DNA of 46,495 nucleotides from an uncultured Pseudomonadota bacterium (GTDB taxonomy: Bacteria > Myxococcota_A > UBA796 > SXON01), in contig CAJBVW010000249.1 of NCBI GenBank assembly GCA_903959175.1, forward strand, positions 1 to 46,495, in the 5' to 3' direction. Below the pieces are notes generated by a model. It saw only the letters and a program-made list of their open reading frames with translations. It did not search any database and was not told the origin of the DNA. Every line of letters starts with the position of its first letter. Position 1 is the stretch's first letter. This document shows positions 1,082-31,389 of the stretch, piece by piece. Made by a program: the position numbers and the translations under genes.

Positions 1082-4933
<3,852 letters not shown>

Positions 4934-5098
4934 CGGGATCCCAGGTCGGCTGCCCGGCATCGGCCACGACCGCCGACGGTTGAGCGCGGTCTGCGGAATT
5001 GATCGATCGAAACCCGGATCCGGCGGCGCCGGCGGAGGGCGGGGCTCGGAGGCTGCCCTGCGCGGCGGGGCGGGCTACGTGGGGGCCCGGAGGGGGGG

Positions 5099-6013
5099 AT
5101 GGGCGTCCGGATGGAGCACGACGGTCCGATCACGAGGGTGATCCTCGACCGCGCGCCCTACCGCCGCACCCACGCCGACGCGCTCGTCGCCTTCGCTGGC
5201 GCCAACCCGCCGAGCCCGCTCCTCGCCCTCCCCGCGCGCCGCATCCTCGTGTCGCTCGCGCCGCCGGAGGGCGTGTTCGACCTCGCGCGGGACGGCCGCC
5301 GGTGCTTCGTCGCCGCCGTGGTCGACCGCTGCGACAACCTCCACGACGCCGCGCTCCTCGAGGTCCTCGGGTGGGACCGCGACGTGCCGCTGGACACCCT
5401 CCTCGCCGAGGTCACCCCCGACGCCCTCGAGGTCGGCCGCGCCGCCGGGCGCGCGCTCCTCTCGCTCTCGCTCCCGGCCGGGGTGGGCGGCGATCTTGCG
5501 GCCGCCGGGTGGGCCGTCGCGGAGGGCAGCTACATCCTCGAGCGCGACCGCTCGCCGTGGGACACGCCGCCGCTCCCGCCCGGCGCGCGCTGGGAAGACC
5601 TCGATCGGCGCGGCGTCGCGGAGCACTACGCGGTGCTGCGGGCCGCCTTTGCGGACGATCCCGCCATGATGGTGCCCGACCTCGCCACCTTCTCCGCGGT
5701 GTCACTCGGGGCGCCGCTCCCGGTACGCGTGTTGCGACGCGACGGGTGCGAGCTGGCTTTTTCCCGTGTCACCGTCGAGGATGGGCGGGTGGGCTACGTG
5801 GCGAGCATCGGGCGGGCGCCGGAATGGCGGGGGCGGGGCCTGGGTTGTGTCGCCCTGGCCGAGGCCCTGCGCCAGCTCGCGACGCAGCCCGTGGGGCGCT
5901 TCCGCCTCGGCGTGACCGCCACCAACACCGCGGCCGTCGCGCTCTACCTGCGCGCCGGGTTCCGCGTACTCGAGACCTGGCAGACCTGGCGACGCCCCCT
6001 GGAGAGCGCATGA
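5099..6013 (+). CDS. GNAT family N-acetyltransferase
   Basis: A 304-residue protein. The C-terminal half (about 165-300) is a GNAT fold: an RRDGCELAFSRVTVEDGRVGYVASIG strand pair is followed by the acetyl-CoA pyrophosphate-binding loop EWRGRGLG (the Q/RxxGxG/A motif), and by TNTAAVALYLRAGFRVLETW, the standard C-terminal GNAT signature. The N-terminal half has no recognisable fold; it may be a degenerate second GNAT domain, as in other tandem GNATs. The start ATG at 5099 has GGAGG at 5089-5093, five bases upstream. Its stop overlaps the start of the reductase gene by four bases (ATGA), so the two are co-translated. The acetyl acceptor cannot be told from sequence. Confidence 0.85.
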   Translation: MGVRMEHDGPITRVILDRAPYRRTHADALVAFAGANPPSPLLALPARRILVSLAPPEGVFDLARDGRRCFVAAVVDRCDNLHDAALLEVLGWDRDVPLDTLLAEVTPDALEVGRAAGRALLSLSLPAGVGGDLAAAGWAVAEGSYILERDRSPWDTPPLPPGARWEDLDRRGVAEHYAVLRAAFADDPAMMVPDLATFSAVSLGAPLPVRVLRRDGCELAFSRVTVEDGRVGYVASIGRAPEWRGRGLGCVALAEALRQLATQPVGRFRLGVTATNTAAVALYLRAGFRVLETWQTWRRPLESA

Positions 6014-6795
6014 CGGAGATCCTCGGCGCCCGCATCGTGGAGAACCGCGAGGTCGCCCGCGCTACACGCTGGCTCGTCATCGAGACCGACGAGCCCCCGG
6101 AGATGGCCTACGTGCCCGGCCACATCGTGGCGCTGTACGTGCCGAGCCCGGGTGAGAAGTGGGTGCGCCACCCCTACACCGTGTCGTGGGCCGAGGGCGC
6201 GCGCATCGGCGTGCTCTACCGCGTCGTCCGCGGCGGCCGCACCAGCCCCTTCATGGCGACGATGACCGCCGGCGACACCCTCCGCCTCGGCGGGCGCTTC
6301 GGCGAGGCCGTCTCCACCCTCGTCGACCCCGAGGCCGCCGCCATCGTCGGCGTGTCTACCGGCTCCGGCGTCGGCCCCCTCCACGGCTTCGCCGCGCGCG
6401 CCCTCCCGAACGACCCGCGCCCGATCACCCTCCTCGCCGGCTTCCGTGACGCCGCAGACGCCGCGCTCGTCCCCGAGCTCGACGCCCTGGCCGCCGCGCA
6501 CCCCCACTTCTCCTGGCGCGCCGCCCTCTCCCGCCCGGACGCCGGCGCCCTCGCCGGCCGCGCCCTCGCCGGCCGCGTCACCGCCCACGTCGGCACCCTC
6601 CGCGCGCTCGGTGTCTCCCCGCTCGCTACGCACTGGCACCTCATCGGGAACGGCGCGATGGCGATCGACCTGCGCGCGGGCCTGCTCGCCGGGGGCGTCT
6701 CCCGCGAGCGGGTCACCTTCGAGACCTACCACAACCGCGGCACGAGCCCCGATCTCGCCGTCGTGGCAGCGATCGCGGCGGCCCTCGCCCGGTAG
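6010..6795 (+). CDS. Ferredoxin-NADP reductase-like FAD/NAD(P)-binding oxidoreductase
   Basis: A 261-residue protein with the two-domain plan of the ferredoxin-NADP+ reductase superfamily. The FAD-binding beta-barrel carries the R-x-Y-[ST] motif as RHPYTVS (53-59). The NAD(P)-binding domain has GVSTGSGVGPLHGF (about 114-127), matching the usual G-T-G-x-[AG]-P loop, and ends with an aromatic-containing segment (TFETYHN). It probably moves electrons between NAD(P)H and a partner through FAD. There is no [2Fe-2S] domain. Start ATG 6010 overlaps the upstream acetyltransferase stop (ATGA); the frame is open further upstream but that extension is antisense-like Arg/Pro-rich sequence and is not coding. 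Redox partner unknown. Confidence 0.85.
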   Translation: MTEILGARIVENREVARATRWLVIETDEPPEMAYVPGHIVALYVPSPGEKWVRHPYTVSWAEGARIGVLYRVVRGGRTSPFMATMTAGDTLRLGGRFGEAVSTLVDPEAAAIVGVSTGSGVGPLHGFAARALPNDPRPITLLAGFRDAADAALVPELDALAAAHPHFSWRAALSRPDAGALAGRALAGRVTAHVGTLRALGVSPLATHWHLIGNGAMAIDLRAGLLAGGVSRERVTFETYHNRGTSPDLAVVAAIAAALAR

Positions 6796-6822
6796 GGTAC
6801 GCGCCCCCGCCCGGCCGAGGGC

Positions 6823-11949
<5,127 letters not shown>

Positions 11950-28701: not shown

Positions 28702-28986
28702 ATGCGTACCCTCCCGCTCGTCCTCGTCCTCGCCCTCGCCCTCCTCGCCCTCCTCGCCCTGCTCGCCCTCACCGGCGGCAGCGCCACCGTGAAGGCCAGC
28801 GGCGGCACCGCGACCGTGACGACGTCGGACGGCACGGTCCAGAAGGGCGTGCGCGTCGGCGGCGACAAGGGCGTCGAGGTGAGCGACAAGGGCGTCGAGG
28901 TGAGCGACAAGGGCGTCGAGGTGAGCGGCGAGGGCTTGAGCGTCGGCGGGAAGAAGATCTTCGGGAAGAAGGAGGAGACGAAGTAG
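28702..28986 (+). CDS. Small signal-anchored protein with exact heptapeptide repeats
   Basis: A 94-residue protein of unknown function. Residues 3-24 form a long Leu/Ala hydrophobic segment, either an uncleaved anchor or a signal peptide. The rest is Gly/Thr/Val-rich (GGSATVKASGGTATVTTSDG) and contains three exact copies of DKGVEVS (55-61, 62-68, 69-75) followed by a degenerate fourth (GEGLSVG) and a Lys-rich tail. The alternating pattern suggests short beta strands stacking as a small solenoid. It sits 60 bases after the methylase and 56 before the selenoprotein candidate, same strand. The regular codon usage supports it being real. Confidence 0.6.
   Translation: MRTLPLVLVLALALLALLALLALTGGSATVKASGGTATVTTSDGTVQKGVRVGGDKGVEVSDKGVEVSDKGVEVSGEGLSVGGKKIFGKKEETK
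28864..28926 (+). repeat. Three exact 21-bp tandem repeats
   Basis: Units at 28864-28884, 28885-28905 and 28906-28926 are identical at the DNA level, each encoding Asp-Lys-Gly-Val-Glu-Val-Ser. Identity in synonymous positions points to recent expansion. Confidence 0.95.
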
Positions 28987-29042: not shown

Positions 29043-30866
29043 ATGCTGTTGCTCCTGCTCCACGCCTGCGCGGGCCCGACGAAGGGGCCCCCCGTCGTCA
29101 ACGACTCGAACACGGGCGACTCCGGCGGCACGGACACCGACGATCCCGACGACACCGACACCGACGACACCGACCCCGACGACACCGGCGCGCCCCTCGC
29201 GGACGGCGACAACCTCGTCCGCCTCGGCGCCTGGATGGAGGACGAGGAGCGCACCCTCGTCGAGACGACCGGCGTGCTCGCCCTCGACGCCACCACGGTC
29301 GCGATGTGCATGGGCGCCCAGACGCTCGCCACCTTCGACCTCACGGATCCCGCCGCGCCGGTGCGCCTCGCCACCGTCCCCCTCCCGCGCCCCGCCGGCG
29401 GCTTCCGCTGCCAGCACCTCGCCACCACGGGGGACGGCCGCCTCCTCGTCGCCCACCACGGGGACGAGACCGGGCCCTCCTGGCTCGGCCTCGCGGACGT
29501 GCGCGATCCCGCCGCCCCCATCGGCCTCGCCGCGTGGGCCGGCCCGGCGGTCGAGCGCGTGGCCGCCGCGGGAAACACCGCCTGGGTCGCGGCGCACGAG
29601 GACGGGCTCCTCCGCTTCGATCTGTCGGCCGACACCCTCGATCTCCCCGAGCCCGTGCTCGGCGTGACCGGCAACGTGTACGCCGTCGCCCACCGCGCCG
29701 GCCGCGTGGCCGTCGGCACCGTCGAGGGGAGCCTCTTCCTCGTCGACGGCGACGTTGTCACCGGCCCCCTCGCGCTGTCCGGCCCGGTGCGGGACCTCGC
29801 CTGGCTCGACGACGGCGCGCTCGTCGCCGCGTGCGGCAGCGACGGCCTCGACCGCGTCGACGTCGACACGCTCACCGTCACCGCCCACGCCGACACCACC
29901 GGCACCGCGCTCGACGTGGCCGTCCTCTCCGACGGCGCGGTGGCGGTCGCGGGCTGGAGCGCCGTCTTCGTGCACGACGGCGGGTCCCTCGCGCTCCTCG
30001 GCGCGGAGGACCCCCGCACCCGCTCCACCCCCGGCATCGCGCTCGCCGTCGAGGCCTTCGGCGACGCCCTCCTCGTCGGCGAGTGGAACGGCCTGCTCAG
30101 CTACGCCTGGGACCCCACCGTCTCCGCCCCCGAGGTGAGGATCGACGCCACCCGCTTCGACTTCGGCGCGGTCGCCGCCGGCGAAGTGGACGCCCTCACC
30201 GTCGTCCTCCGGAACGACGGCCCCAAGCCGCTCACGATCACCGGCCTCTCCGTCGCGGACACCGCGGTGACCGTCGACCGCGCCGCCTTCACCATCCCCG
30301 CCGGGGGCGCCGACTTCGCGGAGCTGACGTGGTCCTCCACCGGCGGCCCGCTCAGCACCGCCCTGACGTTCGCTACAAACGATCCGGACGAGCCGACGGT
30401 CACCGTCTCCGTCGGCGCGAACCGCGTCGGCACCGGCCTCGGGGAGATGGTCCCCGCCTTCTCGTACACCGCGCTCGACTCCGCCGACGTCTACACCTCG
30501 CAGGCCCTCGGCCAACCGGCGCTGCTCTCGTACTTCGCCACCTATTGACCCGTCTGTAGTCTGGAGTTTCCAGACCTCGAAGCCTCCTTCCACCAGACCT
30601 ACCGCGACCGCGGGCTGCTCGTGCTCGGCCTCTCCGCCGGTGGCATGGCCGACGCGGACGACCTCCGCGCCTTCGCCAGCGCGAGCGGCGTGACCTTCCC
30701 CCTGCTCGAGGACACGGCCCACACGTATGACGAGTACACGCGCGACCCGACGGCTTCCCCGTATCCCATCGACATCGTGCTCGACGCGGACGGCGTCATC
30801 GTCTACTTCTCGCGCGAGTACGATCCGGTGGGCCTGCGCGCGGCGGTGGAGAGCGTGCTGCCTTAG
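29043..30866 (+). CDS. Putative selenoprotein: thioredoxin-fold lipoprotein with in-frame TGA (Sec502)
   Basis: Read through one in-frame TGA (30546-30548), this is a 607-residue protein. Parts: a very short lipoprotein-like N-terminus (Cys9), an Asp/Thr-rich linker (about 20-50), an LVIVD/PQQ-like beta-propeller (about 55-360), an ASPM-SPD2-Hydin type Ig domain (about 365-465) and a redoxin/TlpA-like thioredoxin fold (about 485-607). The TGA falls at the first position of the active-site motif: FATY-TGA-PVC, where relatives have CxxC. Downstream the frame is unbroken and keeps the strand LLVLGLSAGG, the cis-Pro region SPYPIDIVLDADG and the C-terminal helix. A SECIS-like hairpin follows the TGA. 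If Sec is not inserted, a 501-residue protein without redox domain results. Function inferred: extracytoplasmic thiol/disulfide or peroxide chemistry. A sequencing error changing TGC to TGA is the main alternative. Confidence 0.82.
30546..30575 (+). promoter_or_regulatory. Candidate bacterial SECIS element with recoded UGA
   Basis: The UGA (30546-30548) is followed by a perfect hairpin: GTCTGGA (30559-30565), loop GTT (30566-30568), TCCAGAC (30569-30575). The first loop base is G, 18 nt after the UGA. Published bacterial SECIS rules ask for an apical loop of 3-14 nt with G in the first two positions, at about 16-37 nt from the UGA, on a stem of at least 4 bp; all are met. In E. coli fdhF the corresponding GU lies about 20 nt after the UGA. 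SelB would bind here to deliver selenocysteinyl-tRNA. Confidence 0.78.
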
Positions 30867-30867
30867 C

Positions 30868-31389
30868 GTGCTCGTCGCGTGTGGCGATCCGCTCCCGACG
30901 GACACCGCCGCCGACGCCGCCGACACCGCCGACACCGCCGCTGACACCGCCGACACCGCCGCTGACACCGCCCCGCCCGCGTGGACCGGGTCGGACCTGT
31001 CCCTCCAGGACTGCGACGCGACGCCGCGCCCCCTCGCCTCGCTCGTCGGCCCCGCCGGGCTGGTGCTCGCCGTCGGCGCCGCGTGGTGCGGGCCGTGCCA
31101 GGAGGACGCCCCGGTGATGGAGGCGTTCCGCGCGGAGCACCCCGACATCGGCGTCGCGCAGGTGCTCGTCGAGGGGAGCGACGCCCAGCCGATCACCCGC
31201 CTCGAATGTGCGGAGTGGGCCGAGTCCTTCGCGCTCGGCTATCCCGTCCTCGTGGACCCCTTGTTCCTCACCGAGCCGTTGGTGGGCACGGACGGCTTCC
31301 CGGTGCACGTCGTGTTCGCGCCGGACGGGACGGAGGTGCTGCGCGCGCCCGGGGCCTTCGACGGCGCCGCGGTCCTCGCCGCGCTCTGA
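30868..31389 (+). CDS. Thioredoxin-like (redoxin) lipoprotein with CxxC
   Basis: A protein of about 173 residues. After a short Thr/Asp/Ala repeat linker (units of ADTAADT, about 11-35) comes a thioredoxin/TlpA-like fold with an intact active site GAAWCGPC (Cys74, Cys77), DAPVMEAF helix, the cis-Pro strand TDGFPVHVVFAPDGTE and a C-terminal helix. The start is GTG 30868, one base after the TAG of the selenoprotein candidate, which suggests re-initiation. This gives Met-Leu-Val-Ala-Cys, a lipobox-like end without a proper hydrophobic stretch; an earlier ATG at 30727 would add an Arg-rich stretch overlapping the upstream gene and looks non-coding. Secretion is therefore likely but not certain. 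Probably a redox partner or paralogue of its neighbour. Confidence 0.8.
   Translation: MLVACGDPLPTDTAADAADTADTAADTADTAADTAPPAWTGSDLSLQDCDATPRPLASLVGPAGLVLAVGAAWCGPCQEDAPVMEAFRAEHPDIGVAQVLVEGSDAQPITRLECAEWAESFALGYPVLVDPLFLTEPLVGTDGFPVHVVFAPDGTEVLRAPGAFDGAAVLAAL

Follow-up and report, generated by a model that had tools for sequence, protein, structure and literature searches.

The reading frame at 29043–30866 (+) of the window, by which we mean the whole 46,495-nucleotide stretch of DNA analysed, very probably encodes a 607-residue selenoprotein, as judged by conservation of its single in-frame TGA, by a selected RNA hairpin next to it and by the decoding genes of the source genome. The predicted protein joins a β-propeller, a HYDIN-type Ig domain and a UxxC redoxin domain, and represents an apparently undescribed family of extracytoplasmic selenoprotein fusions with several copies in some genomes. 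Standard gene callers stop at the TGA and drop the catalytic domain, so that such genes would be annotated as inert propeller proteins.

Domain layout and conservation of the in-frame TGA

Translation of the frame gives exactly one in-frame stop, a TGA at codon 502 of 607 (30546–30548), which is followed by 105 coding codons up to the TAG stop at 30864–30866. Judged from its context, LLSYFATY-U-PVCSLEFPDLE, the TGA takes the place of the first redox residue in a thioredoxin fold (FATY-TGA-Pro-Val-Cys). The Pfam AhpC-TSA match (PF00578; residues 467–588, 30441–30806) runs across the TGA with an E value of 4e-14 and 53.1 bits against a cut-off of 26, Redoxin is also matched over the TGA-spanning part (E 4e-10), and ResA chains are among the best sequence matches of solved structure. 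The redoxin domain is kept in all 40 aligned full-length members of the family. Upstream of it lies a HYDIN/CFA65/VesB-like Ig domain (residues 363–458, 30129–30416; PF22544, E 8e-6), which scores barely above the gathering score in the window protein and is matched in 10 of the 40 members. The LVIVD-like β-propeller region (about residues 54–359, 29202–30119) has no Pfam match in the window protein by itself; LVIVD is matched in 29 of the 40 aligned homologues, and a fold search with a model of the window protein gives seven-bladed propellers (top match, target TM-score 0.72), although this AlphaFold model, built from two sequences, has low confidence (mean pLDDT 51.7) and its fold matches are supportive only. 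At the N terminus (29043–29069), translation and the alignment of the 40 homologues suggest a signal peptide with a lipobox, MLLLLLHAC, in which a short hydrophobic stretch leads to the predicted lipidated Cys9 and is followed by an Asp/Thr-rich linker, a lipoprotein-like arrangement. The putative lipobox LLHAC is atypical and Cys9 is almost invariant among the homologues; the product may be a lipid-anchored lipoprotein. An earlier note, made from the DNA letters alone, had placed a single TGA at the first Cys position of a thioredoxin active site and had proposed an architecture of lipoprotein, propeller, HYDIN-type Ig domain and redoxin; the translation and the domain match across the TGA bear out the former, and the Pfam matches, the LVIVD repeats of homologues and the fold match agree with the latter.

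Searches of 142 genomes, comprising the source genome and its relatives, returned dozens of fusion homologues in which the sole internal stop is one TGA. In a profile search that covered 379 genomes from the phylum, the matches listed include fusion genes with a single TGA and scores of at least 260 bits for at least 37 genomes, some of which hold multiple copies. The motif LAYFAT[WF]-U-PVCx[SL]E[VF][SP]D is conserved on either side of the TGA, which mostly lies about 104–113 residues from the C terminus. Across distinct homologous active sites from the same phylum the codon at this site is TGA in 76, TGC in 20 and TGT in three, the resulting set of 23 Cys codons taking in stand-alone generic Cys redoxins. 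Because homologues over the phylum share the TGA at the same codon, its position is, on this comparison, far beyond chance. Among the 12 closest pairs of homologues, pN/pS for the part after the TGA is 0.13–0.62, a range that shows, by this measure, purifying selection on the tails; the same ratio for the window tail against its homologues is near saturation and little informative.

The Sec/Cys label changes seven times on a tree made from 90 redoxin domains; this tree draws on few columns, leaves many forks open and gives the window protein a long branch. One Cys form, at locus L040, falls inside a Sec group, and five others (L128–L131 and L136) are grouped among Sec forms. At L040 (G019:C3) a perfect SECIS-like hairpin is kept beside a TGC codon, which probably marks a recent change from Sec to Cys. 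Loss of the Sec machinery was considered as the cause of the Cys forms and rejected: selA is present in all 10 tested genomes that lack a TGA among the fusion matches listed.

Two observations concern individual homologues. At L143 and L147 (G145, G184) the aligned site of the fusion homologues reads CPMAW, with the resolving Cys missing, and the redox pair seems to have been lost. Tandem fusion genes occur at L024/L063 and L064; at L064 and L063 (G049:C161, G041:C915) every tandem fusion gene has its own TGA and hairpin, a local expansion of the family.

The hairpin downstream of the TGA

Rfam identified no RNA family in the window, and the SECIS was therefore examined by hand and by covariation. 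The candidate hairpin (30559–30575, +) consists of a 7-bp stem, GUCUGGA/UCCAGAC, closed by the loop GUU, which starts 17 nt past the UGA; its calculated energy is −10.5 to −10.7 kcal/mol. The published limits for bSECIS elements are a loop of 3–9 nt, a stem of 4–16 bp, a G in the first two loop positions, a spacing of 16–37 nt and an energy at or below −7.5 (PMC13188914). The window hairpin, with its 3-nt loop opening on G, 7 bp, 17-nt spacing and energy of about −10.5, lies inside every one of them.

Homologues form the hairpin in two registers. In the class with the peptide LE[FV]PD it has seven pairs and a 3-nt loop, and in the class with SEVSD it has six pairs and a GGUC loop. Paired cells make up 97.6–99.1% across the two registers, and pairing is destroyed when the register is slid. 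None of 500 shuffles reached the observed pairing percentage or covariation score, a significance that is overstated owing to the kinship of the homologues; stronger evidence comes from the synonymous swaps. Two Ser codons of the SEVSD class pair through their third bases in all sequences (TCC-TCG, TCG-TCC, TCT-TCA) while the protein is unchanged. In the LE[FV]PD class CTG..CCA is replaced by CAG..CCT twice, and the G-C pair at the base of the stem becomes C-G three times. Synonymous compensation of this kind is an unusually clean demonstration of selection on the RNA, besides that on the peptide.

At sites that encode Cys the hairpin is for the most part missing. Its median energy is −10.0 at Sec sites versus −4.6 at Cys sites, and it is more stable than 95% of synonymous recodings, for which the codon usage of the window was applied to all sites, at 37 of the 76 Sec sites versus 1 of the 23 Cys sites. 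Taken alone, the window hairpin is moderately unusual, with 208 of 5000 synonymous recodings under local codon usage being as stable. Of the 594 stretches of 13 codons in the window gene, the one that starts at codon 501 has the most improbable codon choice, and AGT, TTT and CCA within it each account for at most 1% of their own synonyms.

Decoding machinery and the status of the TGA

The source genome contains a tRNA-Sec (62.9 bits; anticodon TCA according to ARAGORN), selB (284 bits) and selD (272 bits). For selA, two models gave no match in the genome assembly; a selA match, at least partial, is found in 20 of the 21 other genomes of the same taxonomic family. Locus L088, from a genome of the same genus, carries selA at 5695–6963 on the minus strand. 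This region aligns to the source genome up to 5044, which falls almost at the end of contig C22; the alignment resumes at 6878 with the opening bases of contig C511, whose end codes for RRSLPSVDRLLRLVPELPRAAATRAARALV, the SelA N terminus. From this synteny, together with the first SelA codons at the end of C511, we infer that the assembly gap between C22 and C511 falls inside selA, so that SelA, incomplete in the assembly, is probably encoded by the genome. The absence of selA was accordingly dropped as an argument against Sec decoding.

The earlier note had read the frame as a selenoprotein gene and had named the Sec-decoding genes and the homologues as places where this reading could fail. 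It gains from each: the TGA is conserved and its hairpin selected; tRNA-Sec, selB and selD are present, with selA interrupted by a contig end as judged by synteny; residue 502 is Cys in some homologues and TGA in most; and in place of homologues that end at this point without a redox domain, all 40 aligned full-length proteins retain that domain.

If the TGA were instead a genuine stop codon or an error of sequencing, the remainder of the frame would be a decaying pseudogene remnant. The standard code does give a product of 501 residues, and homologue and profile searches recovered no copy of the fusion gene in the two same-genus genomes, but dozens of genomes share the TGA at this codon, the frame past it is conserved and under purifying selection, and the hairpin covaries, all of which makes such decay very improbable. 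Still harder to entertain is reassignment of TGA in the source genome, or its reading as Trp or another amino acid, in favour of which we find nothing beyond the open frame itself. TGA serves as the ordinary stop of selD and of the next gene in the window (31387–31389), the genome has the Sec-specific tRNA and factors listed above, and the alternative codons at the site specify Cys rather than Trp; we regard reassignment as exceedingly improbable.

Predicted chemistry, known relatives and gene neighbourhood

Under the selenoprotein reading, SelB bound to the hairpin right after codon 502 would bring Sec-tRNA to the UGA, and the ribosome would then finish the 607-residue lipoprotein, which would be exported and lipid-anchored in an extracytoplasmic position. 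Its ResA/TlpA-like C-terminal domain would act through Sec502-x-x-Cys505 as a thiol-disulfide oxidoreductase via a selenenylsulfide, and Glu508 would serve as acid/base in the active site. The propeller and the HYDIN-type Ig domain may position the redoxin domain or recognise and bind the substrate. Sec/Cys502, the resolving Cys505 (30555–30557) and Glu508 (30564–30566) are invariant in all 40 aligned members. A Glu at +6 has a role in the ResA active site, and all 40 members have this Glu six residues past the first redox position, as in the ResA/TlpA arrangement. ResA is also the sole NCBIfam model matched by every one of the 40, with a score far under the NCBI cut-off (40.7 versus 170). Peroxiredoxins carry a signature Thr/Ser three residues before the peroxidatic Cys; this is missing here, the window protein having Ala499 and most members shown likewise having Ala. 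The ResA/TlpA spacing, the Glu at +6, the ResA matches and the lack of the peroxiredoxin Thr together lead us to propose a lipid-anchored thiol-disulfide oxidoreductase, and we favour reductase over peroxidase chemistry with moderate confidence.

A selenoprotein whose redoxin domain is instead a peroxiredoxin-like peroxidase, with Sec as the peroxidatic residue, is the rather unlikely alternative. AhpC-TSA, the best Pfam family, includes peroxiredoxins, several members have PrxQ or AhpC matches as well, and Sec is frequent in peroxidases; the site FAT[WYF]-U-xx-C with its Glu, the absent Thr at −3 and the smaller number of members that match peroxiredoxin models than match ResA all speak against it. 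The roles of the domains could also be divided differently, with the propeller as a binder of extracellular targets, matrix proteins or prey for example, and an accessory Sec domain that repairs or folds the propeller. LVIVD repeats are found in choice-of-anchor surface proteins, three of the 40 members match the choice-of-anchor B (LVIVD) model TIGR04312, which describes an LVIVD-type propeller on a surface protein, and the lipobox and Asp/Thr-rich linker suggest surface display. The most conserved residues sit in the redoxin site, though, and we consider this division of roles unlikely; to our knowledge, TIGR04312 proteins are known neither with a redoxin domain nor with Sec. A broader proposal, possible but on balance doubtful, is that this is a phylum-wide expanded and surface-anchored family in which the propeller recognises a defined extracellular or periplasmic partner and the Sec site acts on that partner, the genes sometimes occurring in tandem arrays or with a second Sec/Cys redoxin adjacent; it would then constitute an undescribed selenium-based redox system of the outer envelope.

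Peroxiredoxin-like thiol:disulfide oxidoreductase selenoproteins of PF00578, with UxxC or UxxU motifs, are a predicted family (PMC9312934, PMC13188914), and the Sec redoxin domain is thus already known; what appears undescribed is the propeller–Ig fusion family. These selenoproteins share with the window protein the Pfam domain and Sec as the first residue of the redox motif but are given without a propeller–Ig fusion, and neither review mentions a propeller or Myxococcota (PMC9312934, PMC13188914). The large size and GC richness of the genomes studied here point tentatively to Myxococcota as their phylum. Ocean data include peroxiredoxin-like selenoproteins fused to other domains, and in the accessible part of that study the propeller–Ig–redoxin fusion is not among them (PMC2398784). 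The earlier note had not known this fusion as a described selenoprotein family, and no report of an LVIVD propeller–Ig–redoxin fusion was found in the literature searched, in which subscription journals are thinly covered, so that absence is not proven. ResA, TlpA and DsbE share the window protein's domain, the spacing of its active site and its Glu at +6, but they have CxxC and stand alone, at about 170 residues. WAxxUGC_long (NF041054) is a Sec-type ResA-like redoxin that 21 of the 40 members match weakly; its motif is UGC, unlike that of the window proteins, which come nowhere near its 300-bit cut-off. OS_HP2 (NF041425; DUF1573, UxC or UGC motif), linked to pfam07610 and the motif UxC (PMC2398784), weakly matches the Ig-like region (E 9e-4, 19.6 bits). 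Membership in OS_HP2 was rejected: this score compares with a cut-off of 100 bits, one of the 40 members matches, and Sec here lies in the redoxin domain. Every NCBIfam match of the window protein is far under its cut-off, and no NCBIfam model matched by the 40 members describes the fusion.

A single base separates the stop of the selenoprotein gene from the GTG start of a second small lipoprotein gene (30868–31389, +), which has a Cys-type thioredoxin site, WCGPC (Pfam AhpC-TSA, E 5e-6), and is probably its operon partner. A redoxin gene adjoins the fusion also at L021 (Cys), L054 (Sec, WUSGC) and L150 (Sec, WUGAC). The Sec redoxin gene at L054:400–828 (+; FTEFW-TGA-SGC) is distinct from the fusion gene, lies a short way upstream of it and encodes a second predicted selenoprotein in that cluster; the small redoxin at L150:3223–3501 (+; AFW-TGA-GACQ) has a fusion gene of the Cys type nearby on the other strand. 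At L156, neighbouring TGA redoxin domains with EW-U-PPC and KT-U-TEC occur on the same strand (365–823 and 1031–1453, −). Elsewhere in the window, 28702–28986 (+), just upstream of the selenoprotein gene, encodes a small protein, predicted to be secreted, in which DKGVEVS repeats occur in tandem, and 1082–4960 (−) encodes a large protein of surface type that combines six MopE copper-binding motifs with FG-GAP repeats and Lamin Tail Domains.
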